Source: a virus
Virus record (IMG/VR): IMGVR_UViG_3300008266_000427
Location: 1 to 25,098 of that record
Strand: one strand, 5' to 3'
Length of the DNA: 25,098 bases
In this document: in pieces, positions 1 to 14,800 of the stretch
How the letters are laid out: every line of letters begins with the position of its first letter
How positions within the stretch are numbered: the first letter of the stretch is position 1
Made by a program: the position numbers and the translations under genes
Notes under the pieces: generated by a model
Seen by the model: the letters and a program-made list of their open reading frames with translations, nothing else
Told to the model about the DNA's origin: nothing
Databases searched by the model: none

Positions 1-1
1 C

Positions 2-958
2 GAGCGGTTCATTGGGATTTCCCAGCGCGGACCTATGCCAGTTCCCTTGCGCTACTACGCCGCCCACACAGGACGGTGGGGTGGTGATGACAAGTTGAAC
101 CTGCAAAACCTGCCGAGGAACTCTCCCCTGAAGAAGTCCATCTTGGCCCCTGATGGGTACATGATGATTGACTCAGACTCATCGCAGATTGAAGCACGTA
201 CGCTGGCATGGCTAGCTGGGCAAGACGACTTAGTGGAGGCATTTGACCGTGGCGAGGACGTTTACAAAATCATGGCATCTGCTATTTACGGCAAGCCAGT
301 CTCGGAGATTTCCAAGGACGAAAGGTTCGTTGGCAAGACGACAATCTTGGGCGCAGGGTACGGCATGGGGGCGGCAAAATTCCAAATACAGCTTAAAAAT
401 TTTGGAGTTGCTATCGAGCTTGATGAAGCCAAGCGGATCATCGACACGTACCGCCGCACGTACCCAAGGATCACTGAGTTGTGGAAAGCCGCAGGGGGCA
501 TCCTTGGAGCCATCATCGGCAACCAATCCACCGAGCTTGGCCGAGGCGGTGTTCTGAAAGTGCAGGGCACCAAAGGTATCTTGTTGCCGAACGGCCTATA
601 CCTGCGCTACCCCAACCTGCGCCAATCCGTCAACGAGGAAGACGGCAAAACCGAGTACGTGTACGACACCAAGAAGGGTAAGGCCACAATCCCCAACCGC
701 ATCTATGGCGGCAAGGTGGTGGAGAACGTCTGCCAAGCCCTCGCTCGGATTGTGATCGGCGATCAGATGTTGCTGGTTGCGAAGAAGTACCAAGTGGTCA
801 TGACAGTGCATGACGCGATCGCTTGCATCGTGCCCGAGACCGAGGTGGAACGTGCTGTCGAGTACGTTGAATTGTGTATGCGTATACGTCCGCAGTGGGG
901 GCCCGAGCTCCCGCTTAACTGCGAATCTGGTTCAGGCAAAAGCTACGGGGACTGCTGA
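2..958 (+). CDS. polA: Family A DNA polymerase, C-terminal part (5' end outside window)
   Basis: This is the palm and fingers part of a Pol I-type replicative polymerase, which extends primers during phage replication. The frame is open to the window edge, so the start and the exonuclease domain lie upstream; 318 codons are visible. Motif A reads DSDSSQIEAR, with the catalytic Asp at 176-178. The O-helix (motif B) reads RFVGKTTILGAGYG, giving equivalents of E. coli R754, K758 and Y766, with Leu (347-349) in place of Phe762. Motif C reads VHDAI, with catalytic Asp at 812-814; the usual HDE is HDA here. The stop overlaps the next start (ATGA), so the genes are probably translationally coupled. 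Family assignment is firm. The Leu762 and HDA variants are seen directly; their effects are inferred. Confidence 0.96.
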   Translation, partial: ERFIGISQRGPMPVPLRYYAAHTGRWGGDDKLNLQNLPRNSPLKKSILAPDGYMMIDSDSSQIEARTLAWLAGQDDLVEAFDRGEDVYKIMASAIYGKPVSEISKDERFVGKTTILGAGYGMGAAKFQIQLKNFGVAIELDEAKRIIDTYRRTYPRITELWKAAGGILGAIIGNQSTELGRGGVLKVQGTKGILLPNGLYLRYPNLRQSVNEEDGKTEYVYDTKKGKATIPNRIYGGKVVENVCQALARIVIGDQMLLVAKKYQVVMTVHDAIACIVPETEVERAVEYVELCMRIRPQWGPELPLNCESGSGKSYGDC

Positions 959-1236
959 TGAGAAAACTACTCAACCAAATAATCCAGTGGGCGCTACGTG
1001 AGGAAGACCGGCGGGGGCTAAGCGTTGGCAAATGTGAGACTGTGCGCAGTGACACCATACCCTCGTTCCGCATTGGTGTTATGAAGGCGATGAACGGACG
1101 CATCTTGGAGGTGAGCACGTACAAGCCCAACAACCACGGACCTGACTGGACAAACGAGATGTTCATCGTGCCCGAGGATCAAACGCTTACGCAAGCACTC
1201 ACAACACTTTTAATTCTGAAGGGGCTCAACACATGA
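958..1236 (+). CDS. Hypothetical phage protein, 92 aa
   Basis: I do not recognise this family. The start ATG overlaps the polymerase stop and the stop overlaps the next start, both as ATGA, which strongly supports a real gene in the replication operon. The N-terminus is a basic amphipathic helix (MRKLLNQIIQWALREEDRR). A mixed alpha/beta region follows with alternating hydrophobic residues (FRIGVMKAMNGRILEVSTY) and a predicted helix at the end. There is no signal peptide, membrane segment or cysteine cluster. It lies between a DNA polymerase and a nuclease, so a role in DNA metabolism is possible, but this is context only. Confidence 0.8.
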   Translation: MRKLLNQIIQWALREEDRRGLSVGKCETVRSDTIPSFRIGVMKAMNGRILEVSTYKPNNHGPDWTNEMFIVPEDQTLTQALTTLLILKGLNT

Positions 1237-1895
1237 GCATCGTCTGGTCATTCAGTAGCCTCAAGACATTCCAGCAATGTCCGAAGAAGTATTACCACAC
1301 CAAGATTGCCAAGGATGTTGTTGAGCCAGACACCACGGCCACGCTGTACGGGAAGTCGGCCCACACCGTTGCGGAGGAATACATTCGTGACGGTAAACCA
1401 GTTCCCCCTCAGTTTGCGTACATGCAAGAAATGCTGGACAACCTCAAAGCAATCCCCGGTGAGAAGCACTGCGAAATGATGTTGGGCTTCACCAAGGACT
1501 TGGAAGCGTGTGAGTTCCACGCACCGAACGTCTGGTGGCATGGCATCGCCGACTTGGTCGTGATCAACGAGGAAAAGAAGATGGCCTACTCTGTGGACTA
1601 CAAGACCAGCAAGAGTGCCCGGTACGCTGACGTGAAGCAGTTGGACTTGGTGGCGACAGGCATCTTTGCCAAGTTCCCCAAGATCGAGCGGATCAAGTCG
1701 GCGCTTTTGTTCGTTGTAAGTAAAGAGTTTGTCAAAGCCGAGCACCACGCCGAGATGGTGCCCAAGTACGTAGAAAAACCTGCGCGAGATGTTGCACGAA
1801 TCGAGGCGGCATTGGAAAATGGGGTTTGGAATCCCGTCCAAGGACCCCTGTGCAAGTTCTGTTCAGTCAAACAATGCGAATACAACAGGAGCTGA
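1233..1895 (+). CDS. PD-(D/E)XK nuclease, Cas4/RecB-like with probable 4Fe-4S cluster
   Basis: Predicted DNA exonuclease of the RecB/Cas4 nuclease superfamily, 220 aa, the usual length for stand-alone phage members. The N-terminus has the family opening SFSSLKTFQQCPKKYY. It is followed by a conserved His in SAHTVAEEYI, the metal-binding Asp in GIADLVV, the DYKTSK (D-x-K) catalytic pair, and QLDLVA, which corresponds to the QhxxY helix. One cysteine near the N-terminus (C16) and three at the C-terminus (C207, C210, C215) match the split four-cysteine arrangement that binds an iron-sulphur cluster in Cas4, AddB and Dna2. Neighbours suggest a role in phage recombination or end processing. Start chosen at ATG 1233 because of the ATGA overlap and an upstream AAGGGG. 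CRISPR association is unlikely: there are no other cas genes or array. Confidence 0.88.
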   Translation: MSIVWSFSSLKTFQQCPKKYYHTKIAKDVVEPDTTATLYGKSAHTVAEEYIRDGKPVPPQFAYMQEMLDNLKAIPGEKHCEMMLGFTKDLEACEFHAPNVWWHGIADLVVINEEKKMAYSVDYKTSKSARYADVKQLDLVATGIFAKFPKIERIKSALLFVVSKEFVKAEHHAEMVPKYVEKPARDVARIEAALENGVWNPVQGPLCKFCSVKQCEYNRS

Positions 1896-1897
1896 AG

Positions 1898-2179
1898 ATG
1901 GAAAACCAAGAAACCGATACCGCCCTTATCCTTGAAAACGAACTCAAGCGCCGGGTAACCGAAGTCCTTGGCACGATCGTGCACAAGGTAGTAAAAAAGC
2001 AACTGGAGCAAGCGTTCTCCGAGCAGAAGCATCAAATGATGATGGAAATCAGCATCGCAGTGGGCAAGATGCTCCGAGTCGTTGAGGAAGAAGGACGCAA
2101 CCCGTTGTGGACTGCAACCCCCGAGGAGTTTGGTCTGAAGAAAGAAGACCTGAACACCCACATGATTTCAAGAGGTTAA
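1898..2179 (+). CDS. Small helical hypothetical protein, 93 aa
   Basis: Family not recognised. The start is ATG 1898, two bases after the nuclease stop, with AGGAG about seven bases upstream. An in-frame ATG at 1826 would extend the protein back into the nuclease gene and is not favoured. The protein is strongly helical and charged (LENELKRRVTEVLGTIVHKVVKKQLEQAF...), with heptad-like spacing of hydrophobics over residues 10-65 that suggests a coiled coil or helical dimer. The C-terminal third (TPEEFGLKKEDLNTHMI) looks like a short interaction segment. It may be an accessory subunit of a neighbouring replication protein, but that is context only. Confidence 0.75.
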   Translation: MENQETDTALILENELKRRVTEVLGTIVHKVVKKQLEQAFSEQKHQMMMEISIAVGKMLRVVEEEGRNPLWTATPEEFGLKKEDLNTHMISRG

Positions 2180-2181
2180 CC

Positions 2182-2496
2182 ATGCCCTACACCAAAACCC
2201 CCCGACCATACAAACATGAATATCAATTACAGAAAGCCCGAGGAGAAGGGCCAGCACGAGCTGAACGCCAACGTGCACGAGAGACCATCGACAAGAAGCA
2301 CCCCGACCGAGACGGTGATGGCAAGGCTGACATCCGCGAAGGCAAAGATGTTGCACACGTCAAGGCTCTATCTAAAGGTGGAACCAACGGACACGGTGTG
2401 CGCATCGAAAGCGCGGCCAAGAACCGTTCGTTCAAACGCAACAGCAACCACAAGCTGGTGACCGAGACCAGCACGAAGGAACGGAAGAAGAAATGA
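2182..2496 (+). CDS. HNH-like small protein with an EF-hand-like loop, 104 aa
   Basis: Start chosen at ATG 2182, with AGAGG at 2171-2175, rather than the in-frame ATG 2107 inside the previous gene. The N-terminal half is basic (TPRPYKHEYQLQKARGEG...). Residues 42-53 read DRDGDGKADIRE, matching the 12-residue EF-hand spacing (acidic at 1, 3, 5, 9 and 12). Then comes a segment like phage HNH endonucleases: VAHVKALSKGG, then ESAAKNRSFKRN, then NHK. The candidate general-base His and the middle Asn are present. The usual Asp/Glu just before the His is Ala, so catalysis may be altered or lost. HNH-type DNA binding or nicking is a tentative call. The stop overlaps the next start (ATGA), and an SNF2 helicase follows. 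Confidence 0.6.
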   Translation: MPYTKTPRPYKHEYQLQKARGEGPARAERQRARETIDKKHPDRDGDGKADIREGKDVAHVKALSKGGTNGHGVRIESAAKNRSFKRNSNHKLVTETSTKERKKK

Positions 2497-2690
2497 CCCC
2501 CGAGCAAATCTGGCTGCTGAAGTATGGCCGGGGGTGGGTGCATTGGTATGAGCTTGCGGATGAAGATGGGGACGGTGTAGACGATTTAGTTCAACGGATG
2601 CACGAGGCCCGACTGCTCAAGACCGACAGCAACCGCATGTGCGTTAGACTTAAAACAGAGAAGGAAAGAAATGAATCTATCAGAGTATGA
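2493..2690 (+). CDS. Small acidic protein with DxDGDG loop, 65 aa
   Basis: No recognised family. The ATG overlaps the previous stop as ATGA, and the 3' end overlaps the SNF2 gene start by 20 bases. The N-terminal part (TPEQIWLLKYGRGWVHWYEL) is aromatic-rich. The middle reads DEDGDGVDDLVQ, an EF-hand-like acidic loop at 2559-2594 with Gln where position 12 is normally Glu. The C-terminus is basic (RLKTEKERNESIRV). The protein is small, but its tight packing between two supported genes makes it credible. It could be a helicase accessory protein or a metal-stabilised mini-domain; neither is established. Confidence 0.65.
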   Translation: MTPEQIWLLKYGRGWVHWYELADEDGDGVDDLVQRMHEARLLKTDSNRMCVRLKTEKERNESIRV

Positions 2691-4059
2691 GTGGCCCCGT
2701 CCCCATGGGTTCACTCCGTTCGTACATCAGAAGTCAACAGCAGAGTTTTTGATTAGTAACCGCAAGGCGTTTTGCTTCAACGAGCAAGGCACCGGCAAAA
2801 CAGCATCAGTGATCTGGGCCGTTGACTACCTCATGAACATCGGCCTCGTGCGCCGAGTGCTTGTCATCTGCCCTTTGTCGATCATGAAGTCGGCTTGGCA
2901 GGGCGACCTGTTCAAGTTTGCGATCCACCGCACAGTCTCTGTCGCCTACGGCAGTGCACGTAAGCGCAAGGAGATCATCAACGCTGGGGCTGAGTTCGTC
3001 ATCATCAACTTCGATGGTGTCGGCATCGTCAAGGACGAGATCATCAACGGCGGGTTTGACCTGATCGTTGTGGACGAGGCGTCTGCGTATAAGAACGCAC
3101 AGACAAGCCGCTGGAAAGACCTGCGAGACCTAACAAGAGTTATCAAGGGCTTGTGGATGTTGACGGGTACACCCGCCGCGCAGTCTCCCGCCGATGCGTT
3201 TGGTCTGGCAAAGCTGGTCAACCCCAAGGGTGTGCCGCAGTTCTTCACGCACTTCAAAGACATGGTGATGACCAAGGTCAGCCAGTATCGGTACATCCCG
3301 AAGCCGACTGCGAAGCACATTGTGCACACCGCACTGCAACCCGCAATCCGGTTTGAGAAGCGCCAGTGCATCGACCTGCCCCCGCTGACGTTCGTTGAAC
3401 GTGATGCCCCGTTGACTCCCCAGCAAGCTGGCTTCTACAAGTTACTTAAGAAGGAGATGATGATCGAGGCCGCAGGGGAGGAAATCTCAGCCGTCAACGC
3501 CGCCACCCAGATCAACAAGCTGCTCCAGATTTCATGTGGCTCGATCTACACCGACACAGGCGAGGTCGTGGACTTTGACGTGAGCAACCGACTCAACGTG
3601 GTGCAGGAGATCGTGGACGAGTGCAGTAACAAGGTGCTTATCTTTGTGCCATTCACGCACTCGATCGCATTACTTGAGAAGCACTTAACAAAGAACAACA
3701 TCACTTGCGAGATCATCAACGGCAGTGTGTCGGTGAACAAACGTGCAGACGTGGTACAGCGGTTTCAGTCTCAGGAAAACCCGAAGGTGCTCATCATCCA
3801 GCCGCAAGCCGCATCCCACGGGCTTACCCTAACTGCCGCCGACACCATTATTTGGTACGCTCCTTGCACCAGCGTAGAAACGTACTTGCAAGCCAACGCA
3901 CGTATCGACCGCCCCGGTCAGGTCAACCCCATGACCATCGTCCACATCCGTGGAAGCCAAGTCGAAAGCCGCCTGTACTCCATGTTGCAAAACAACGTGG
4001 CAGGACACAAAGAAATCATCGACCTCTACCAAGAAGAAATTTTTGAAGAAACCTCTTGA
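2671..4059 (+). CDS. SNF2-family helicase/ATPase (superfamily 2)
   Basis: Predicted ATP-driven DNA translocase, 462 aa, with both RecA-like lobes and no extra domains. Motif I (Walker A) is EQGTGKT (residues 38-44), motif II is DEAS (135-138), motif III is LTGTP (164-168), motif V lies in QPQAASHGLTL (377-387), and motif VI is QANARIDRPGQ (407-417). The GLTLTAADTIIWYAP and DRPGQ strings are characteristic of SNF2-like rather than DEAD-box helicases. Start ATG 2671 has AAGGAAAG upstream and overlaps the preceding gene. Phages often carry compact SNF2-like helicases in replication modules, where they may remodel protein-DNA complexes or assist recombination. The specific role here is unknown. 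The stop codon lies inside a palindrome and promoter that serve the next gene. Confidence 0.93.
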   Translation: MNLSEYEWPRPHGFTPFVHQKSTAEFLISNRKAFCFNEQGTGKTASVIWAVDYLMNIGLVRRVLVICPLSIMKSAWQGDLFKFAIHRTVSVAYGSARKRKEIINAGAEFVIINFDGVGIVKDEIINGGFDLIVVDEASAYKNAQTSRWKDLRDLTRVIKGLWMLTGTPAAQSPADAFGLAKLVNPKGVPQFFTHFKDMVMTKVSQYRYIPKPTAKHIVHTALQPAIRFEKRQCIDLPPLTFVERDAPLTPQQAGFYKLLKKEMMIEAAGEEISAVNAATQINKLLQISCGSIYTDTGEVVDFDVSNRLNVVQEIVDECSNKVLIFVPFTHSIALLEKHLTKNNITCEIINGSVSVNKRADVVQRFQSQENPKVLIIQPQAASHGLTLTAADTIIWYAPCTSVETYLQANARIDRPGQVNPMTIVHIRGSQVESRLYSMLQNNVAGHKEIIDLYQEEIFEETS

Positions 4060-4071
4060 CACTGTCAAGAG
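4053..4071. promoter_or_regulatory. 19-bp perfect palindrome, candidate repressor operator
   Basis: CTCTTGACACTGTCAAGAG is a perfect inverted repeat with two 9-base arms around a single central C. It contains the TTGACA -35 box of the adjacent promoter and the stop codon of the SNF2 gene. With a one-base centre it is too tight to form an RNA hairpin but is a natural shape for a dimeric DNA-binding protein. The HTH protein encoded at 5441-5692 is a candidate ligand, which is inference only. Confidence 0.6.
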
Positions 4072-4083
4072 TTGTGGTAGAGT
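4056..4083 (+). promoter_or_regulatory. Sigma70-like promoter for the downstream half of the operon
   Basis: A consensus -35 box TTGACA (4056-4061), a 16-base spacer and a -10-like TAGAGT (4078-4083, four of six matches) lie just ahead of the 49-base gap between the SNF2 gene and the coiled-coil gene. This is the longest untranslated stretch in the left block, which fits a promoter. The -35 is fully inside the 19-bp palindrome, so binding there would compete with RNA polymerase. Confidence 0.6.
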
Positions 4084-4108
4084 ACCCCACCAACCAAGGA
4101 GAAAAAGT

Positions 4109-4537
4109 ATGGACGAAGAAGTTCAGGGGCAAGATTCCCCCCAATATGACCTAGACAAGCTGACCGCCATCTACCTCAAGATGCGCGACAAACGGGACGA
4201 CATGCGCCGTGAGGCCGAGGCCCGAGAAAAAGAAATCGAAGAGCAGATGAGCATCATCGAAGCCGAGATGCTCGAAGTCTGCAAGCAAATGAACGCCGAC
4301 AGCGTTCGCACCCCACATGGCACGATCATCCGTTCCGTAAAGTCACGGTACTGGACGAATGATTGGGATTCGATGTATCAGTTCATCAAAGAACACGATG
4401 CGTTTGGCCTGTTGGAAAAGAGACTTCATCAGACACACCTGAAAGAGTTTCTTTCCGAGAATCCCAACACGTTCCCCATCGGGGTCAACGTGGAAAATTC
4501 GTACTCCGTGGTTGTTAGACGTTCCAAAGGAAATTAA
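4109..4537 (+). CDS. Coiled-coil phage protein, 142 aa (Gp157/Gam-like shape)
   Basis: Start chosen at ATG 4109, which has AAGGAG at 4096-4101; an in-frame ATG at 3950 lies within the SNF2 gene and is rejected. Residues 13-60 form a long charged coiled coil (LKMRDKRDDMRREAEAREKE...). A compact C-terminal region follows: residues 64-81 (ADSVRTPHGTIIRSVKSR) look like beta strands, residues 82-120 look helical, and the tail NVENSYSVVVRRSK is a final strand. A coiled coil followed by a small domain is reminiscent of phage Gp157 and Gam-type proteins, which bind DNA ends or modulate recombination, but no signature residue proves it. It is the first gene after the palindrome-controlled promoter and sits one base before the next gene. 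Confidence 0.8.
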   Translation: MDEEVQGQDSPQYDLDKLTAIYLKMRDKRDDMRREAEAREKEIEEQMSIIEAEMLEVCKQMNADSVRTPHGTIIRSVKSRYWTNDWDSMYQFIKEHDAFGLLEKRLHQTHLKEFLSENPNTFPIGVNVENSYSVVVRRSKGN

Positions 4538-4538
4538 G

Positions 4539-5438
4539 ATGAGCAATATCACACTCTTGAATCAAGACCTCCCCGACTTTCTGCAACAAGCAGGTGTCAG
4601 TGATCTTACAAAATCCCTCGCTGGTAAAACCGGCGTCAAACGTATCGTGCCGAAGAACGGCATCTTCCGCAAGGTAGTCGGCGGTGAGGAAATGGGCAAG
4701 GTGAAAGGCAATCTCAATGCCATCATCGTGAACGCATCCCCCAAAGTTGGCCGCATCTTCTACGCAAAGCAGTGGACTCCCGATGCCGAGCCGACCGCAC
4801 CCGACTGCTTCAGCAATGACGGCAATGTCCCGGACGCAGGTTCAGCCAATGCGCAATCCGATCGTTGCGACACCTGCGCTCAGAACATCAAAGGTTCGGG
4901 CATGGGTAACTCCAAGGCTTGCCGTTACAGCCAGCGCATTGCGATGGTGTTGGAAGAAGACTTTGGTACTTCGCTGGAAGGTGAAATCTACCAAATGAAC
5001 TTGGCCTCCAAGTCTTTGTTCGGCGACAGCACTGCCGACAACACCCACACCTTTGGTAACTACACCAAGTACCTCGCCAACAACGGCAAGAGCTTGGACT
5101 ACGTTGTCACCACCATCAGCTTCAACGAAGAAAACGATAACCAGTCGGTGCTGTTCACCCCTGCGCGTTTCATCAACAAGGCTGAGTACGCTGTGACCAG
5201 CGTAGTGGCGGCAAAGCCCGAAGTGCAGAAGATGGTCTTGATGACTCCGTACCAAGCGGATGCGTCTGGCCGTGCCCCAAAGCTGGAAGCACCTGCCCCC
5301 AAAGCCGCCGCACCTGTGACAGTTGCCGATGCTGTGGCCGAACCCACCAAGCGCGAAAGCAAGAAAGCTGAAGCCCCCGCTCCGACTGCAAAGAAGGACT
5401 TGGGTTCTGTGGTCGCCGCATGGACTGACGAGGAGTAA
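4539..5438 (+). CDS. Four-cysteine protein with acidic tail, possible ssDNA-binding protein
   Basis: 299 aa. ATG 4539 is preferred over a TTG at 4512 because it follows AAAGGA and the previous stop directly. Residues 40-85 and 130-230 alternate hydrophobic and polar residues as in a beta-rich fold. C90, C110, C113 and C128 (DC..CDTC..ACR) form a likely zinc site inserted in the domain. Residues 250-285 are a Pro/Ala/Lys-rich linker (EAPAPKAAAPVT...). The protein ends in LGSVVAAWTDEE, an acidic aromatic tail like those that phage and bacterial SSBs use to recruit partners. These traits plus its place in a replication operon suggest a single-strand binding protein, though I do not recognise the family firmly. 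A zinc-binding replication accessory factor is the main alternative. Confidence 0.72.
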   Translation: MSNITLLNQDLPDFLQQAGVSDLTKSLAGKTGVKRIVPKNGIFRKVVGGEEMGKVKGNLNAIIVNASPKVGRIFYAKQWTPDAEPTAPDCFSNDGNVPDAGSANAQSDRCDTCAQNIKGSGMGNSKACRYSQRIAMVLEEDFGTSLEGEIYQMNLASKSLFGDSTADNTHTFGNYTKYLANNGKSLDYVVTTISFNEENDNQSVLFTPARFINKAEYAVTSVVAAKPEVQKMVLMTPYQADASGRAPKLEAPAPKAAAPVTVADAVAEPTKRESKKAEAPAPTAKKDLGSVVAAWTDEE

Positions 5439-5440
5439 GC

Positions 5441-5692
5441 ATGAGCTATGGTTACAGCCAGAACTTGGTGTACGCCAACAAAAAGGCCAGCATCAAGTCT
5501 CTGGGCGTAGCCTTGGGCCGTGTATGTATTCTTGAAGGCGTAAGCGTGAGCCATGTTGCTGATTCTTTTGGAGTTAGTCGCATGGCCGTTTACAACTGGT
5601 TCAAAGGGGACTCCGTGCCCCACCCAGACACTCACGCCGCCATCGAGAAGTTCATGCGCAGTATCAAGCGTCGCCGCAACAAACAGAAATAA
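5441..5692 (+). CDS. Small HTH DNA-binding protein, 83 aa
   Basis: Residues 35-54 (SVSHVADSFGVSRMAVYNWF) form a clear helix-turn-helix of the Cro/YdaS or transposase-helix kind: the VADSFGVS turn is followed by the recognition helix RMAVYNWFKG. A highly basic tail (KRRRNKQK) could add DNA backbone contacts. The gene is preceded by AGGAG (5431-5435) and a two-base gap from the previous stop. It lies within the transcription unit driven by the palindrome-overlapping promoter at 4056, so a self-limiting Cro-like loop is plausible. That link is inference; it could also regulate elsewhere or support replication initiation. Confidence 0.8.
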   Translation: MSYGYSQNLVYANKKASIKSLGVALGRVCILEGVSVSHVADSFGVSRMAVYNWFKGDSVPHPDTHAAIEKFMRSIKRRRNKQK

Positions 5693-5694
5693 AC

Positions 5695-8550
5695 ATGTCC
5701 AGTTTTGACCTACTCGACACCGTGTTGCCCACGGAAGGGCGGTACTGTGTTTTCGGATACGGTCGTTACCCAGACCAACGCTTTGCAGATACACGAGAAG
5801 AAGTCGATGCGATAGCCGCTGAGTTTGTCCGCCGCAAAATAGATGCGTATTTTGGTTGCGCCAAATATGGCCCACTGAACAACAGGACACATGAGAACGC
5901 CACGTACTTCCGCGCACTGTGGATGGACATTGACTGCGGCCCCACCAAGGGTGTCCCAGACGAGAAGGGTGTCATCAAAGGCTATCTGACCCAAGACATT
6001 GGGTTGGCCGAGTTCAAAAAGTTTTGCATGGCCGTTGGCATGCCACGACCGATTCTGGTGAGTTCCGGTTACGGGATTCACGCTTACTGGCTACTCGAAG
6101 AAGTAGTTACCCGCCGCGATTGGGAACCACTTGCCAACCGACTCCGTGAGTTGTGCGTCGAGCAAGGGCTGATCGTTGATTCTTCAGTGTTTGAGGCTTC
6201 GCGTGTTCTGCGCATCCCCGGCACCTTTAATTTCAAGCAGGACGAACCCAAGCTGGTAACAGTCCTTAATGAGAAAACACAGCGCCTGACGTACGAGCAG
6301 TTCAAAGAATTACTCGGCGCACCTGAACCCAAAGACGATGTACCCGACTTCATCCCGCGCTCGATGAGCCCGATGATGGAGGCCCTGATGGGCAACAAGG
6401 TCAAGAAGTTCAAGACCATCATGCTTCGGTCCGCCGAGGGTGACGGTTGCCAACAGCTGCTGAATTGCTTCGAGAACCAAGCCTCTATTGAAGAACCCTT
6501 ATGGCGTTCTGCTTTGTCGATCGCGGCGTTTTGCTCCGATGGCGATGCCTCTGCGCACAAAATGTCCAAAGGGCACCCTGAGTATGACCCCGCTCAAGTT
6601 GACCAAAAACTTGCACAGCTCCGCGCCAAGGGTGGCCCACACCACTGCGCTACGTTTGCGAAGCTGAATCCAACTGGGTGCGATGGTTGTCCACACAAGG
6701 GCAAGATCAAATCACCGATCGTGCTCGGCATGGAGATCGAGGAAGCCGACCCGGACGACAACGACTTTGTGGTTGCCGACGAAGAGACTGGCGAAGAAAC
6801 GCACTACCACATACCCGAGTATCCGTTCCCATTCTTCCGTGGCGCAAAGGGTGGCATCTACCGCCGAGCCAGCGAGGAAGAAGACGAACCAGCATTGGTG
6901 TACGAACACGACCTGTACGTGGTCAAGCGCATGAAAGACCCCGAGGTTGGGGAAGTTGCGCTATTCCGACTGCACCTGCCGCACGATGGTGTGCGCGAGT
7001 TCAGTATTTCCACAGCATCCATTTCCGCAAAAGATGATCTGCGCAAGCAGTTGGCCCACCACGGGGTCATGGCGCACCACAAACAGTACGAGAACCTTGC
7101 TTCGTTTGTTGTGGCATTCATCAAAAATTTGCAGTACGTAAAAAAGGCAGAAACCATGAGAACCCAATTTGGATGGGCCGATGCGGACAGTAAGTTCATA
7201 CTCGGCGACCGTGAGATCACCAAGGACGGTGTGTTTTACAGCCCACCCTCCAGCACCAACAAAGACGCCGCTGAGAAGATTCACGTCAAAGGTGACTTCG
7301 ACAAGTGGAAGGAAGTGTTCAACCTCTACGCCCTGCCGGGGATGGAGCCCCACGCATTTGCCGCACTCACAGCGTTCGGCTCCCCACTGCTCAAGTTCAC
7401 CGGCTTGGAAGGCGCGATCATCAACATCATTTCCCCGGAGTCAGGCTCGGGTAAGTCCACAGCCCTGTACATGTGCAACAGCGTGAGCGGCCAGCCGAAA
7501 GAGCTGACCTCCATGTTCAAGGACACGTTCAACGCCAAGATTCACCGACTCGGTGTGATGAACAACCTCGCCAACACGATTGACGAGATCACGAACATGA
7601 GCGGCATGGAGTTCTCCGATCTGTCGTACAGCATCAGCCAAGGCCGTGGCAAAGACAAGATGAACGGCTCGACCAACACGCTGCGCGTCAACAACACGAA
7701 ATGGCAGGGAATCAGCCTTTGCTCCTCCAACGCCAGCTTCTACGAAAAGCTCGGGGTATCCAAGAGTACGCCGGATGGTGAGTCGATGCGTCTGCTTGAG
7801 TACAGGGTGGACCACAACAACATCATCTCGATGGAGCACGGCAAGCAGATGTTCGACCACCAACTGCGGGAGAACTACGGCCATGCAATGGAGCCCTACG
7901 CCCAATGGCTGGTGAACAACAAAGAGGAAGCAGTCGATCTGATGCGCCAAGTTCAGGCCCGTATCGACAAAGAAATTCAGTTCACCCAGCGTGAGCGTTT
8001 CTGGTCTGGTGTTGCCGCTTGCAACATCGCTGGTGGCCTGATCGCCAAGAGCCTCGGCTTGCACGACTTCGACATGAAGGCCGTCTACGAGTGGCTCAAG
8101 AAGATGCTGAGCGAAATGCGCCAAGAAGTGAAGCCCCCACAGGCATCGCCAATCACAGCAGTCGGCGAGTTCATCAACGCACACATCTCTAATGCGCTGG
8201 TGGTCAACGGTGAAGTGGATGCCCGGAGCAATCTATCGGCACTCCCATTGCTGGAGCCCCGTGGTGAGCTGATGATCCGCTACGAGCCCGACACCAAAGA
8301 GCTGTACATTGCGGCCAAAGCGTTCAAAGACTTCTGCGTACGTCAGCAGATCAACTACAAGGGCACCCTCAAGGAGCTCCAGCAACTGGGTTGCTACACC
8401 GAGGCTATGAACAAGCGGATGTCGAAAGGTATGAAGATGGTGTCCCCCGCCGTCCGAGTGCTGAAGTTCGACGCCTCGTCTTCAGAGTTTTTGCAAGTGG
8501 ACGTACAACTGAGTGCAGATGAAGATCGAAACGGTAGCGTTCCAGATTGA
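5695..8550 (+). CDS. AEP-type primase fused to a P-loop helicase
   Basis: 951 aa, predicted bifunctional primase-helicase for the phage fork. The N-terminal archaeo-eukaryotic primase domain has the catalytic DxD at 78-80 (LWMDIDCG), the SGYGIH motif at 124-129, and the third motif region at 162-180 (DSSVFEASRVLRIPG). A probable zinc site follows with H316/H317, C318, C329, C332 and H334 (HHC...CDGCPH). Residues 350-400 are acidic. The helicase/ATPase part resembles DUF927/D5-type motors: Walker A PESGSGKST at 581-589 and Walker B TIDEI at 628-632, then a sensor-like SLCSSNAS near 674-681. It starts two bases after the HTH gene with no clear Shine-Dalgarno, so coupling is likely. It would replace the TOPRIM-type gp4 primase-helicase of T7-like phages. 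The exact helicase family is less sure than the primase. Confidence 0.9.
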   Translation: MSSFDLLDTVLPTEGRYCVFGYGRYPDQRFADTREEVDAIAAEFVRRKIDAYFGCAKYGPLNNRTHENATYFRALWMDIDCGPTKGVPDEKGVIKGYLTQDIGLAEFKKFCMAVGMPRPILVSSGYGIHAYWLLEEVVTRRDWEPLANRLRELCVEQGLIVDSSVFEASRVLRIPGTFNFKQDEPKLVTVLNEKTQRLTYEQFKELLGAPEPKDDVPDFIPRSMSPMMEALMGNKVKKFKTIMLRSAEGDGCQQLLNCFENQASIEEPLWRSALSIAAFCSDGDASAHKMSKGHPEYDPAQVDQKLAQLRAKGGPHHCATFAKLNPTGCDGCPHKGKIKSPIVLGMEIEEADPDDNDFVVADEETGEETHYHIPEYPFPFFRGAKGGIYRRASEEEDEPALVYEHDLYVVKRMKDPEVGEVALFRLHLPHDGVREFSISTASISAKDDLRKQLAHHGVMAHHKQYENLASFVVAFIKNLQYVKKAETMRTQFGWADADSKFILGDREITKDGVFYSPPSSTNKDAAEKIHVKGDFDKWKEVFNLYALPGMEPHAFAALTAFGSPLLKFTGLEGAIINIISPESGSGKSTALYMCNSVSGQPKELTSMFKDTFNAKIHRLGVMNNLANTIDEITNMSGMEFSDLSYSISQGRGKDKMNGSTNTLRVNNTKWQGISLCSSNASFYEKLGVSKSTPDGESMRLLEYRVDHNNIISMEHGKQMFDHQLRENYGHAMEPYAQWLVNNKEEAVDLMRQVQARIDKEIQFTQRERFWSGVAACNIAGGLIAKSLGLHDFDMKAVYEWLKKMLSEMRQEVKPPQASPITAVGEFINAHISNALVVNGEVDARSNLSALPLLEPRGELMIRYEPDTKELYIAAKAFKDFCVRQQINYKGTLKELQQLGCYTEAMNKRMSKGMKMVSPAVRVLKFDASSSEFLQVDVQLSADEDRNGSVPD

Positions 8551-8713
8551 CTGGAAGAAGTTCCGAAAGGGGTACTCCTTTTTTGTACCCTGCATCGACC
8601 ATGAAGCGGCCAGACAAACACTGGCCGTGGTCACCAAGCGCCTGAAAATCAAGACCATCAGCAAAGTGGTGGTCGAGGAGGGCATCAAGGGCTTGCGCGT
8701 TTGGCGCGTATAA
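8519..8713 (+). CDS. Small conserved phage protein, 64 aa
   Basis: The reading frame overlaps the 3' end of the primase gene. ATG 8519 is chosen, but GTG 8513 (two residues longer) is possible; neither has a strong ribosome-binding site, so coupling to the primase gene is likely. The sequence (MKIETVAFQIDWKKFRKGYS...VWRV) has a short beta start, a DWKKFRKGYSFFVPC loop, a helix (HEAARQTLAVVTKRLK) and a final strand pair, which looks like a compact alpha/beta fold of about 60 residues. Similar short proteins occur at the end of phage replication operons as I recall them. The function is unknown. It is the last gene before the terminators. Confidence 0.78.
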   Translation: MKIETVAFQIDWKKFRKGYSFFVPCIDHEAARQTLAVVTKRLKIKTISKVVVEEGIKGLRVWRV

Positions 8714-8725
8714 ATTACACTTGGG

Positions 8726-8747
8726 CCGCTGGTTGATGATCCAGCGG
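8726..8747. terminator. First hairpin downstream of the replication operon
   Basis: CCGCTGG and CCAGCGG form a perfect 7-bp stem around an 8-base loop, followed by TTTCTCCTT, a weak U-rich tract. It lies 13 bases after the last + strand stop codon. Alone it would be a weak terminator or a 3'-end-stabilising structure; together with the next hairpin it forms a tandem pair. Confidence 0.55.
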
Positions 8748-8777
8748 TTTCTCCTTGATAGTTGGTTCTTCCTGTTA

Positions 8778-8805
8778 CCCCCCGGTTTGCGCCGGGGGGT
8801 TTTTT
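8778..8805 (+). terminator. Strong rho-independent terminator
   Basis: CCCCCCGG, loop TTTGCG, CCGGGGGG and then six Ts (8800-8805) make an 8-bp all-GC stem with a U-tract, a textbook intrinsic terminator for + strand transcripts. On the - strand the hairpin is followed by TAACAGG, which lacks a U-tract, so it looks one-directional. The T-tract ends on the first base of the giant gene's stop codon, so the two convergent blocks are separated by less than 100 bases. Confidence 0.92.
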
Positions 8806-11800
8806 CATTTCTGGCGGTTCTTTTCTTCCCGCTTGTCTGCCGCAAGTCGGGATGGGAGCAGTGTCTCCGCGAATGGACCTACGTTCTTCTCGGTCAACGT
8901 GATGCCTCGGAAAGACTTGGCACGTTGCTCCTGCTTGCGCTCCAACGAGTCCACAAGGTTGTCGGTCGTGATTTGGTACGTGGGGTACTTGTTGTTGAAC
9001 TTCTGCATATCACCGTAGTATTCGGTGTAGGCATCGAAGTCTTTCTCCCGGTACGCACGGTCGATCTGATTCATGATCTTGGTGCGCTCGTTCAAAATCT
9101 TCTGCTCAAGGCCGATGACTTTGAAGGTCACGTACTGCGTATTCGCAAGCAGGTCTGAGCGGAAGCCGACAGCTTGGAAGATCAACTCGCCTGTGGTGAA
9201 CGCATCGCGAGACAGAATCTCCGCACCCTTGTTGTCCTTTGCGCCCTCTTCGTAGTAATTAGCTGCGTTGATCCAGTTACGGAAACCAGCAGGGGCGGCT
9301 TTGAGGACACCCTTCTTGTAGTCACCCTGCATGAACGCATCGTACGAGTCGATAAGAGACAAGATCATGTTGGCGGATGGGCCAGCCTTCTCCACTGCCA
9401 AAGCTATGGCGCTTTCGCGTGTGGTTGCAGTTTCTTTGGTGTCGCGCAGCCACATGTTGTTCAGGCTCGTACGGCTGGAGATGTCCACACCTGTGATGGC
9501 GTTGACAGGGCCGCGCTCAATGACGTCGGCGAGATCGTATCCAGCAATCTGAGTACCACCAAGCTGTTCCTTGAGCCAGACAGTGCGCCACCACAACTCG
9601 TAGCTCATGTTCTTGACTTCCTCGGGCCACTCATCATCCTTGAGGGAGTTCCACATCGCGCCGAGCAAGCCCATGACTGTGCTGAAACCCCACAAGCCGA
9701 CTGCGCCGCCGAGCACCCATGTGTGGCCCATAGTGCCGAAGAACTTCTTGGCCGCTTCAAACCGAGTGCGACCGTTCATTGGCTTGACCATCTCCACAAA
9801 GTTCCTACCCAAGAACAGGGTCATGTACACCGGGTACATCATGAACTGCGTAAGAATTCTGCCCGGAGCGCCCTTCATAAAGTCAGGGCGGTTGTACTGG
9901 CCGTAGTTACCAAGGGCTTCGTTGGTATCGTAGACAGCGTTGTCCACCGAGGTCTCATGATCCCGACCTGCTTTGCGGTTCAGTCGGTACGCTGCAAGGA
10001 ACATGGCCTCACGAGACATACGTTCAGTCGAGTGCATCAACCCGCCGAGCACCAGTGCGCTGACAGTGTCTTTGGCAAACTGCACCTTGGGTGAGGGAAT
10101 ATCGTCGGTCGGCGTGGCCTTGTAGCCCAGCGCATCGCGTGCGTATGTGGAAGTGGTCAGATCACGACCCATCATGTCTTTGATAGCGCGGCGCTCATCT
10201 TCGCTGCGGGTGACGTTTTCAATAGATGGAGGTGCCCAAGAGAAGGTGCCGTCGGCGTTTTTCTTCATCACACCGAACTCGTTCCACACCTTGAGCATGT
10301 TGCCCATCTCGGCGTAGGCTTTGCCGACACCGTACTTTGTAAGCACGGGGATGCCAGTCTGAAACAAGCTCAATGGCTGGAGTACCGCCGAGGAGATACC
10401 GCCCAGATAGAAGATGAACGAGAACTTGTTGAGCGCAGCTGCGATTTTCTCGCCAAAGGATAGCTCGCCCACCGACAGTTCATCAGACACACGTCGCTCA
10501 AAGGTGGCAACGTAGGGCTCATATATTGGGCGGTTCTTGATCGAGTCACGAGCCTGAGACAGCGAGTTGCGCAGCAGGGGAGCGTACTTGATCCGGGCAA
10601 GCTGAGTTGCCATCTTGGTGGTCGTGTCGGCCACGTTGCGCAGCAAGTCGGTGCGGAAACCAGCGAAGCCCTTACGGTGAATGAACTGCTTGCGGAAACT
10701 CTGCTCGGGCATTGTCTGCAAGTAGAGCTGGTACACCGCATCCTTGAGCTGTTCCTTGGCTTCTGGGGTGAAGTCAGTCTTGGCCCCGGTCTTGTCAATC
10801 TCGGCAAACACACCAGACAGAAGCTGGCTGTTGCCGACTGTGGTTTTGCGCAGGGCACTGATGTCGTTGCCGTACACAAACTCTTCCGACTCCAGCAAGT
10901 CTTCCATGTTCCGGGCCCGGCGCTTTTGGAACGCAGCATCCGATTCACCGGGCTTTTGCTTCACTTTCTCGTCGGCAAACCCTTGCATCGCACGGTCACG
11001 CTCGCCCATGCTTTCAAACATGAAGAACTTGCGAGTCTCGCCTGTGCCGATCGACAACCAGAAATCCCCACGGCGCACCAGCGGGAAGTACGGAGTGATC
11101 TTGCTTCCGGTCTCGTATATCGCCCTGATCTTCTTGATCAGGTTGGCCTGCTCCGCGATTGGCAGACCCGACTGTGTGATTTGGTCATCAAGCAACTTGG
11201 AGAAGGTGTTCGACAGAATCTCAAAGTGGCGCTTGACGCGGTTGTAAATGCGCTGACCTTCTGGGCCGAGTGCAGCGTATTGCGCATCGAGGTCTTTGTT
11301 CCGAACAGTCTGGGACTTGTCCGCTGGGTCGTACTCGGCGAGAGTAGCCATGTGCGTGATTCTGTCCAGCTTCTTGCGCAGGGTTGGGTCCTTGCGGAAT
11401 GCACGAGAGATGTCGTTGGTCAGATCACCCGCACCCTTGAGAAGCGTCTCAGTCATGCCGCTCATTTTCTGCATCAACTTGTGGGTGTTGCGCAGCTCGG
11501 GAACATCTCGCCCGGTTATTTCCACGATGAAGTCGTTCGTCATCACGCGAGTCAAAGCTGCGCGTGCGCCGAGGTTCATGCGGCTGTAAAGGTCACGGAT
11601 AGCCGGGATTACCTTGCGGGGGTCCTGCGCCATCTGCAGCAAAGACACTGCCTTGCTGTATTCGTCCCCGTTCTGGGACTCCTCAAATTTAGCGTTCGCT
11701 ACTTTTACCGCACGGTTCAGCTGTTGCTGGGTACGGACTGCATTTCCAACCGACGAAGTTTCGCCACCATCTCCGGCAGGCTGGCCGACTTGTCCAACAC

Positions 11801-14800
11801 TTTGAGCGCTTGCTCCAACCCCTGCCGGTACGCTGGGTCCTCCTTGTCCTGCTGCGCGTTCGCCTTCCATTGGCTCAGAAGCGCCTTCATCTCCGATTTG
11901 TTGGTAGCTAGCGTCCGCGAAGCGGTTGCCACGAGGTTTGATATTGCCACTGCGGAACTCCTTGTTCAAAAATTGGAAGATGTCATCGTTGTCATTGATG
12001 ACTTTGGTCAGGTCCTTTTTGGCCTGTTGTAAATCAAACGATGGGTGAGTGTCAAGCAGCGTCATGATCTTCTGCATCTCAGAAGCAAACTCGCCGCCGT
12101 GGTTGCGCACACGGTAGTGCGCCATCTCGTGAACCATCGTGCCGATCATAGACACTGCAACTTGCGCAGGGGTATCACGCAGGTCGGTCGTAGCCGGGTT
12201 GATGAACATGCCCTTGAACGGCACCACGATGCTGACACCGTAATACTCGTTGTCAATACTCACGCCAAAGGCTTGATCCGCCATACCAGAGTATGAGTTG
12301 TCAACCGACAACAGAGCATCACGCAGCAGGTGGAACGTCTCGCCGATTGCCGACAGGTACTTGTTGACACGAGTGGCACCGAATTGGTCACGCGCAAGGT
12401 CGGACAAAGACTGAGGGGTGCCAGTAGGTGCTTGGACAGGTATATCGTTCATAGCCGCCCACTCAAAAACTTTTGAGGGGACGCCAGAATAGTCAACAAT
12501 CTTAGTCCTGCCGGGGCCGTATACACTCGTGGTACCGTACACGCTCATCCAAAAGCGCCCGTTACCGAGATCAACCATCTCGTATCTTTCGGGGTCACTT
12601 GCCACTAAATCGTCGAGCGCCTTCTTTGCATCTTCTTCAGACACAACATTTGCACCCGTCGCCGTGTTGTCGTGGATCATGACCTTGGTCGAGTCGATCT
12701 CATTCTGCGGAATGGTCAGCTCGTCAATACGGATGCTCGTCTTCTCCAAGTCTTTGGCAGTCAACTCAGGCAGTGCGCGGTTGTTGACGTACAGCACGCC
12801 TTCACGAACTTCCACTTCGTCGCCGGGCTTGATCAGCGTGAATGCGTTGTCACTCGGAGGGGCGGTCGGCTCCAATTCTTTTGCTTCAGTCATCGACCCA
12901 TCAGAGTTGACGTACTGCACCGTGCCAAAGTTCTTGACACCATCGGCCAGATCGAGCTGGCTGTAGATGGCGGTAATGTAGTTGAAGATTTTGCCGAAGT
13001 CGTCTTTGGCTACAGCTGAGAAGTTCTGGCGATTCAAGTCAAACGGATACCCAGCATCTTCTGGCTTGACGTTCTCGGCGGGGGTCACGTCTACATAAAA
13101 CGTGCGCTTGATTTGCTTACCCTCGAATCCGGGACGGTCCTTGATCGACATGTCAAATTGCCACAACCCGTTGGACAGCACATGGGTGTTGCCTCTATAC
13201 GGTGGGTCTGTCTTCTCTTTGGACACGTAGATACGTGCAGTGCCCCAAGCAAAGTTGACGTTTGCAAATGGGGTGTAGTCGTTGACAGGAAAATTGGAGC
13301 CGATTGGTAGCTGCTCCGGGCCATACCCGTAATCGACGCTGACATCAATGTCACCAAACAGCGGGCTGAACTCCAGCACGGGGGCGTTCTTTAGGTCCCA
13401 CTTGCTGAAGTTAATTTTTTCCTGCTCGCCAGTGGACTCGTTGGTGAAAGTCTCAGGAATAGTCACAGTCACCGCAGTGCCGTGGCCATCGGGGAACAGA
13501 GTTTCAATATAGCGCTGAACGGTCTCTGGGTCTTCAGTAACTTCGATGTTAGGCCCTCGGTCTGGATCATCCAGCGCGGCTTTCAAGTCATCACCGTTGG
13601 TGACCATGCGAGAGATCACACCATCGCGCAGCGACACGACTTCAAGCTGCTTGTTCTCAAACAGGAACAGCATCTTGGCAACGCCGAGGCCACCGGACGC
13701 ACGCTTTGTCTCTTTGACAGTACCAGCAATCTGCAGGAACTGATTGCCCATCACGCTGGTCGGCATACCAAGGCCGTTGTCCACAACACGGATAGAGCGG
13801 TTGGTATCGTCGATCTTTACATCAACACGACCTTTGGTCAGCTGCCCTTGTTCCAGCGAACCCTTGATGGCGTCGAATGAGTTCTGGAACAGCTCTTTGA
13901 TCGAGACCAGCGCAATATCTTTTGGCGTGCCGTACAGCTTGGAGCCGAGCATCTTGGCCAGACGCTGCACGTTCGCACTAGGGCGAGCCTTAATTGTTGT
14001 TTCTTCCGGCAGCGGCTCGCTGGCCTTTGGCTCTTCCTTCTTGCCAAACCCAAACATAGAGCTGGCTTGCTCCCCACGCGCTTGGTACTGCGGTGCACGA
14101 GTGCTCAGGATGGTGTCGGTCACGACGATCAAGTCGGTCAGAGCGTTGGTGGTGTCGTCGCCCATGCCAAACAACTCGCGGATGCCGCGCACGAAACGGT
14201 TGAAGTACGAGGTGTCTTCCTCGTAGCCTTGGGCCTTCATCAAAAACTGCTGGAACTCTGGGTCGGTCATGCCGTACGCAATGAACTCGCGAGGGTCTTC
14301 CAACACTTCGCCTCGGTCGGCGAGCAAAGAGAGATACTCGGGCAGCTGCCCCTTGGCAGACATGTCGTTGAACGTGCTGATGGCACTGTTCATTGTGCGG
14401 AGCAAGTCGGTTGCCGAGCGCACCAGCGGCGAGTTGAGGCTGACACCCTTCTTGATTGCTTCGATAGCCAGAACAATCTTGCGGTTGGTGGCTGCGTGCA
14501 GCAGCTCGTGCAGGATGGTCAGGTTGTTGACGCCTTGGTTTTCGCCAAAGGACGCACCGCGCACATAGATCACACGGTCGCCCGTGTTGTAGTTCTCGAT
14601 GTACAGCGCAATGGAACGATCCCAGTGACGGGCATTCTTTGCCGACTTGAGCTGAGCTGGCAGCTCTTGGCCTTCTTCGATAACCACAAACTTGACGTTG
14701 GTTACAAAGCTGCGCAGGCGCTTGCCAAGCGCCTTTTGGAAGTCGTTGCCCGTCTTGATGATGTGGTTCAGGGCTTGGACACCGTTGGTGAACTTGCCAA

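Follow-up and report, generated by a model that had tools for sequence, protein, structure and literature searches.

The locus

The stretch of viral DNA considered here (the window: 25,098 bases, from IMG/VR virus record IMGVR_UViG_3300008266_000427) has a run of + strand genes extending from 35 to 8550. Within it a SNF2-type helicase gene (2671..4059; PF00176, PF00271, phrog_62) is followed by genes for a 142-aa protein (4109..4537; phrog_13900, and PF22709 below cut-off), a 299-aa protein of unknown function (4539..5438), an 83-aa HTH protein (5441..5692) and, last in the run, a DUF927 primase-helicase (5695..8550; PF06048, phrog_8841). The original prediction, made from this sequence without database searches, was of a promoter internal to the replication operon, overlain by a palindrome and expressing a putative ssDNA-binding protein, the HTH protein and the primase-helicase. 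The last two are indeed downstream; the first gene, however, is that of the 142-aa protein, which has a weak likeness to Mu Gam/Sipho Gp157, and the ssDNA-binding label, attached to the 299-aa product, is not confirmed as the PHROG matched (phrog_27714) is itself of unknown function. Placement of the HTH gene in the same unit holds with respect to strand and spacing, the genes from 4109 to 5692 being separated by gaps of just 1-2 bases, from which we infer joint transcription.

The PHROG that the 142-aa protein matches is labelled ‘minor head protein’, as is the Xp15 homolog, and, given the replication-module position and the Gam/Gp157 likeness, that label is probably wrong. Beyond the run, a strong intrinsic-terminator-like hairpin (8777-8800; 10 pairs, 8 of them GC) lies where the replication and structural gene runs converge, and the - strand from 8805 to 17504 is a single ORF of 2,899 aa that may encode one large multi-domain (polyvalent) protein of the phage.

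The palindrome, CTCTTGACA-C-TGTCAAGAG (4053..4071, + strand), is perfect over its 9-base arms and is referred to below as O1, for the operator that it is proposed to be. It encompasses a perfect -35 hexamer, TTGACA (4056..4061), and its left arm also has the helicase stop codon TGA (4057..4059). After a spacer of 16 bp there is an extended -10 element, TGG-TAGAGT (4075..4083; TG at 4075-4076 and the hexamer at 4078-4083), from which a transcription start is predicted near 4090, and AAGGAG (4096..4101) is, judged from its sequence, the probable ribosome-binding site of the 142-aa gene. The palindrome over the -35 box is thus as originally described, and so is its location in the only sizeable gap of the operon, since the 49 bases from 4060 to 4108 are the largest gap in the run. 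With a score of 10/12 the promoter is joint top of the four promoter-like sites in bases 1-12000, the other 10/12 site being on the minus strand, where the palindrome's TTGACA is paired with an AAAAAT 18 bp further along. A check for further copies, as had been proposed, found none elsewhere in the window at up to 3 mismatches.

From the window alone the case is weak. The window has 2 palindromes whose arms are at least 9 bases long with a spacer of 1 nt; dinucleotide shuffling gives 0.11 on average, with one or more in 20 of 200 shuffles, so that O1 is only mildly unusual by chance. (The second such palindrome, at 14716-14734, is inside the giant - strand ORF and is probably a chance occurrence.) The strength of the case comes from comparison with relatives.

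Conservation of the dyad

A search of viral_contigs for the 18 fixed bases of the palindrome found 14 stretches: 13 have them at the homologous place, and one (L015) is unrelated. When the pattern is relaxed to TTGACA-N-TGT(C/A)AA, which is the core TTGACACTGTCAA at 4056-4068 in the window, it is found in 69 of the 72 distinct intergenic regions that precede the 142-aa gene. The three exceptions (Rollin, RHph_TM27A and Xp15) have 142-aa homologs of only 27-28% identity, and within the family proper the figure is 69 of 69. Loss of the palindrome from close relatives that keep the gene order, which would have counted heavily against the prediction, is accordingly not what is seen. Rollin is instructive in having, at the homologous place and overlapping the helicase stop, a TTGACA promoter without the dyad, and in the 17 kb of it examined an HTH homolog was not detected.

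Among 41 distinct 43-mers, TTGACA is invariant in all, a figure to be read with the core pattern in mind as that pattern itself fixes most of the bases whose invariance is reported, TTGACA included, with no family locus being lost by its use. In the -10 element, columns T, A, A and T are retained in 39-40 of the 41, with the T, A and final T reaching 40, and the central base of the dyad is random (0.1 bit). The right half-site is fixed save for position 10 (C in 23, A in 18), with the right arm reading TGTAAA in about half of the family, and is conserved even though a sigma-70 promoter has no need of those bases. The outer arms vary, often in step, the second outer pair being T.A in 29 of the 41 and G.C in 4. 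What the family shares, then, is the dyad TTNACA-N-TGTNAA, whose left half the promoter holds to TTGACA; perfect 9-bp arms are specific to one sub-clade, that of the window. The expectation that the palindrome would be conserved in related phages is therefore borne out for the core and not for the full arms. A consequence of the pinning by the -35 box is that only the right half-site is able to co-vary with a protein.

The HTH protein

An AlphaFold2 model of the 83-aa protein, built with 61 sequences (pLDDT 88.3, pTM 0.76), has five helices, with residues 47-55 (5579..5605, + strand) as the recognition helix and Met48 (codon 5582-5584) inside it. In fold comparison the best Z was 7.1, which is below 8, and the 50 matches listed were mostly lambda-repressor-like. 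Superposition on the P22 c2-operator complex (PDB 3jxb) gives Z 6.5 and rmsd 2.0 over 56 ungapped residues at 16% identity. In that alignment Met48 falls on c2 residue 33. The latter is taken to be a base-reading valine, a role for which a literature search gave no confirmation.

Scores stayed below the Pfam cut-offs for HTH_23 (23.1 against 24.6 bits), P22_Cro (20.0 against 30.2) and HTH_3 (17.3 against 23), NCBIfam gave nothing above cut-off, Foldseek with the model gave nothing at E ≤ 0.001, and PADLOC had nothing convincing for the three proteins submitted. With 50,697 GenBank phage records there was no match at E ≤ 0.01, the HTH family having been found in uncultivated phages only, and a literature search, of sources available in part, found no precedent for this particular repressor. 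A search of genome_contigs with the 142-aa protein yielded one weak 41-residue match, from which no host was inferred.

Right half-site and residue 48

To follow the right half-site more widely, 367 sequences were reduced to 222 distinct loci by dropping 108 duplicates, 36 without the 142-aa gene and one at an edge. Class C loci, in which a base is inserted in one arm, were enriched on purpose by searches with their HTH proteins, so class frequencies are not natural ones. One locus with a doubtful site (L222) is included in the class counts and excluded from trees and cluster tests. The right half-site is TGT(C/A)AA in 156 loci, TGTnnAA in 55 and TGTTAA in three; four have no TGT and a further four have no site in reach.

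The residue scored in each readable HTH protein was that following Ser-Arg or Thr-Arg in the recognition helix, which is Met48 in the window. With TGT(C/A)AA it is Met in 101, Gln in 4, and Val and Ala in one each; with TGTnnAA it is Ala in 45, Ser in 5, Thr in one and Met in 2; and with TGTTAA it is Thr in all three. Put the other way around, Met, Gln and Val go with TGT(C/A)AA by 106 to 2, and Ala, Ser and Thr with TGTnnAA or TGTTAA by 54 to 1, the exceptions at O1 being L358, L163 and L321. Of the 35 clusters described below, two contain both classes and, by the labels on the 142-aa tree, in each of them helix and operator have switched together: in one, L133, L141 and L142 (Thr, TGTTAA) are among Met, TGTCAA sisters, and in the other L324 (Ala, TGTCTAA) is among L188, L191, L245 and L250 (Met, TGTCAA).

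Several analyses took relatedness into account. A 141-row tree built from the 142-aa protein has 8 changes of helix class and 10 of operator class, and five independent pairs (starred branches) change in the same direction 4.9 times on average and in the opposite direction 0.0 times, for a median sign test p of 0.0625, which is above 0.05. A tree of helicase plus 142-aa protein (67 rows, from a quick search) has 5 helix and 7 operator changes and four pairs, with p 0.125. A model in which the two traits are dependent beats the independent one (LR 35.4, 4 df; p 3.8e-7 by chi-square, an optimistic value given the few switches). As another control, each column of the HTH protein, the 142-aa protein and the helicase, all of which share the phylogeny, was used as a predictor of operator class with one cluster left out at a time (151 rows, 35 clusters). 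HTH column 48 was first of the 681, with a balanced accuracy of 0.902, the next having 0.825 and the mean of all being 0.524 (sd 0.093). By raw mutual information column 48 is third, after two high-entropy columns of the same protein; with clustering at 75% identity, where the 4 clusters remaining are too few to inform, it is not among the top columns.

A proposed second operator-promoter upstream

A one-mismatch scan of 13 records revealed extra sites upstream of O1. Eight such places were examined, and seven proved to be promoters of O1 design directly 3′ of an intrinsic terminator, the eighth being within a coding region. These sites, termed O2, had been found with a pattern that included the right half, and the seven were recovered in a scan blind to all bases right of TTGAC. 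Its 44 distinct hits comprised 34 O2, nine O1 and one unrelated site (L264), with a spacer of 16 bp in every O2. Three further O2 sites are from class C phages (L381, L387, L388), by a scan that required GT and none of the later bases; in four other class C stretches (L376, L377, L379, L389) O2 was not found. In the sister phage L008, O2 is at 1493 and O1 at 7527, so that O2 is 6.0 kb upstream and, by that spacing, would be expected about 2 kb before the first base of the window. With O2 present in relatives, O1 would not be the sole regulated promoter.

O2 follows residue 48 in 26 of the 28 phages for which O1, O2 and the HTH protein are readable, the exceptions being L140 and L155. It is GT(C/A)AA in 18 of the 20 Met or Gln phages and in none of the 8 with Ala, Ser or Thr (Fisher 1.4e-5, uncorrected for relatedness). 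The O1 and O2 of one phage share 4.29 of 6 right-half bases versus 3.19 for shuffled pairs (p 5e-5, likewise uncorrected).

As to surroundings, the terminator before O2 (gccaccttcgggtggctttttt) is seen in L368-L374 and at about 30 other O2 loci. Several O2 loci are preceded by a different small gene, the N-terminal part of whose product we take to be HTH-like, and at some a small gene, presumably VRR-NUC-like, follows.

A structured leader element in relatives

A structured element of ~100 nt (L024:9881-9982; also, for example, in L028, L035, L205, L198 and L240) is, in many relatives, directly 3′ of the O1 promoter, within the leader of the 142-aa gene. It is absent from the window. Its outer stem is long and varies in sequence, whereas GGGTTAGCGCC, which is part of a hairpin, and CACTGCTTYATGTGAAC are invariant. 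The collected loci have 94 distinct copies, 62 of them in the 142-aa leader after O1 and 32 elsewhere, and its pattern occurs in at least 120 viral stretches and in no stretch of genome_contigs. The inner stem co-varies, and outer-stem strands pair better with their own partner than with those of others (12.0 versus 8.0, 29 copies). There was no Rfam match, and the element may be a phage RNA not described before, whether riboswitch-like or of another kind. Flanks of the element (L198, L208, L236, L258) have a second repeated motif, ACGCATGGRGAYTG ... CAGTCTCCAGCCGTGTTGG, that often adjoins it and could form another stem.

Proposed mechanism and alternatives

The palindrome is most likely the docking site of a repressor, since related uncultivated phages show the site and the DNA-reading residue changing together. 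Our favored interpretation, to which we assign a probability of roughly four in five, is that it would be the operator through which the HTH protein exerts negative feedback on its own replication operon. The sigma-70-type promoter would have the 142-aa, 299-aa, HTH and primase-helicase genes read jointly. As HTH protein accumulates, it would bind, presumably as a dimer, to the dyad, whose centre is at 4062 (roughly -28), and would keep RNA polymerase off the covered -35 box, thereby blocking the promoter from which it is itself made. A site of the same kind, O2, lies several kb upstream on the promoter that opens the early module, so the HTH protein would also lower expression of the replication module as a whole, acting as a brake on early as well as replication transcription once enough of it had been made. 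What is directly seen is the dyad with its conservation, the match to a promoter, an HTH gene that is conserved within this gene run, and residue 48 co-varying with the right half-sites of O1 and O2; dimeric binding, repression as opposed to activation, a joint transcript and the timing are inferred. The autoregulation by the operon's own HTH protein that was originally proposed is in this way supported by comparison, in that the site co-varies with the recognition helix.

The original prediction also allowed for a host repressor. Such a protein, silencing the promoter via the dyad until the phage removes it, and with the HTH protein having its targets elsewhere, is compatible with conservation of the dyad; that the phage's own recognition helix should co-vary with the site, with O1 and O2 both changing class along with residue 48, is not something it predicts, nor is the joint absence of dyad and HTH homolog in Rollin, and it is considered quite improbable. 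Where the HTH protein does bind O1 and O2 and yet activates transcription, the co-variation is equally good evidence of binding, and the imperfect -10 box TAGAGT would be in keeping. Nevertheless, protein bound over a -35 box near -28 normally excludes polymerase, and that is where this dyad is, on a promoter whose -35 is perfect, whose -10 is extended and whose 16 bp spacer is near-optimal; activation is accordingly rated as unlikely.

Roles not involving a bound protein fare worse. If the inverted repeat worked as a hairpin in read-through RNA, be it as attenuator or as terminator, it could draw on an 8-pair stem with a T-rich tail that a scan picks out on the minus strand. The + strand lacks a T run, however, class C has its extra base in one arm, and a hairpin function, whether of RNA or DNA, was rejected because 18 of the 41 distinct sites keep a G-A mismatch mid-stem; its chances are very slim. 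Even less credence is given to two divergent -35 boxes with an antisense promoter directed into the helicase gene. The 10/12 score of the minus-strand TTGACA and AAAAAT is in its favor, but as a family-wide role it was rejected, the minus-strand hexamer being TTTACA in about half of the family and displaced by one base in class C, and co-variation with the HTH helix is not predicted by it. 

A lysogeny switch is unlikely, as tyrosine integrase (PF00589) was found in none of 14 records of 53-66 kb, the control rings being found in all 14.

Relationship to known systems

The Cro-type early repressors of temperate phages are small HTH proteins that turn down early genes from operators in promoters. 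The protein considered here resembles them in size, in its modest lambda-repressor-like fold matches and in having its proposed operators within promoters. It differs in that no tyrosine integrase was found in the 14 long relatives, in there being one dyad per promoter, and in that neither a CI partner nor a divergent promoter pair is seen at O1. P22 c2 is a lysogeny repressor, and its half-sites are, we presume, different from those of O1. In Aca autorepressors an inverted repeat is inside the core promoter of an operon that encodes the cognate small HTH protein (PMC9410906). To that extent the likeness is close, with a small HTH protein in the operon that it putatively controls and a repeat inside the core promoter, and Aca7, Aca10 and Aca2 structures are among the fold matches. 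Unlike Aca, the setting is a replication module and not, as far as examined, an acr operon, and a different promoter has a further proposed operator. The O1 system is closest to Aca in design and to Cro in proposed role, without being assigned to either family. In Prot-DNA-Korr and its application to MerR, side-chain-to-base contacts are read from correlations between residue and base positions (PMC5045206). Here too residue and base positions correlate; the differences are that the regulator is from uncultivated phages only and that a change in half-site spacing goes with one residue.

Implications

What was a palindrome becomes a candidate repressor-operator pair, in phages for which no cultured relative with this HTH protein was found, and it suggests that in these presumably virulent phages the replication genes are under a feedback brake. 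The system is ordinary in kind; the natural evidence of specificity switching is unusually rich, nature having supplied many variants where a single residue of the recognition helix differs along with the two operators, an apparent switch of HTH specificity without loss of function. A more far-reaching interpretation, which we regard as tentative and on balance doubtful, is of a large family of integrase-less, uncultivated freshwater phages with a dedicated repressor and two operators, in which changes at residue 48 may have re-coded specificity several times and the two operators have kept pace. If it is true, there would be a natural residue-to-base code for a change in half-site spacing, and if relatives also co-infect, their repressors would be mutually blind, a divergence resembling that of immunity groups in phages that are virulent.
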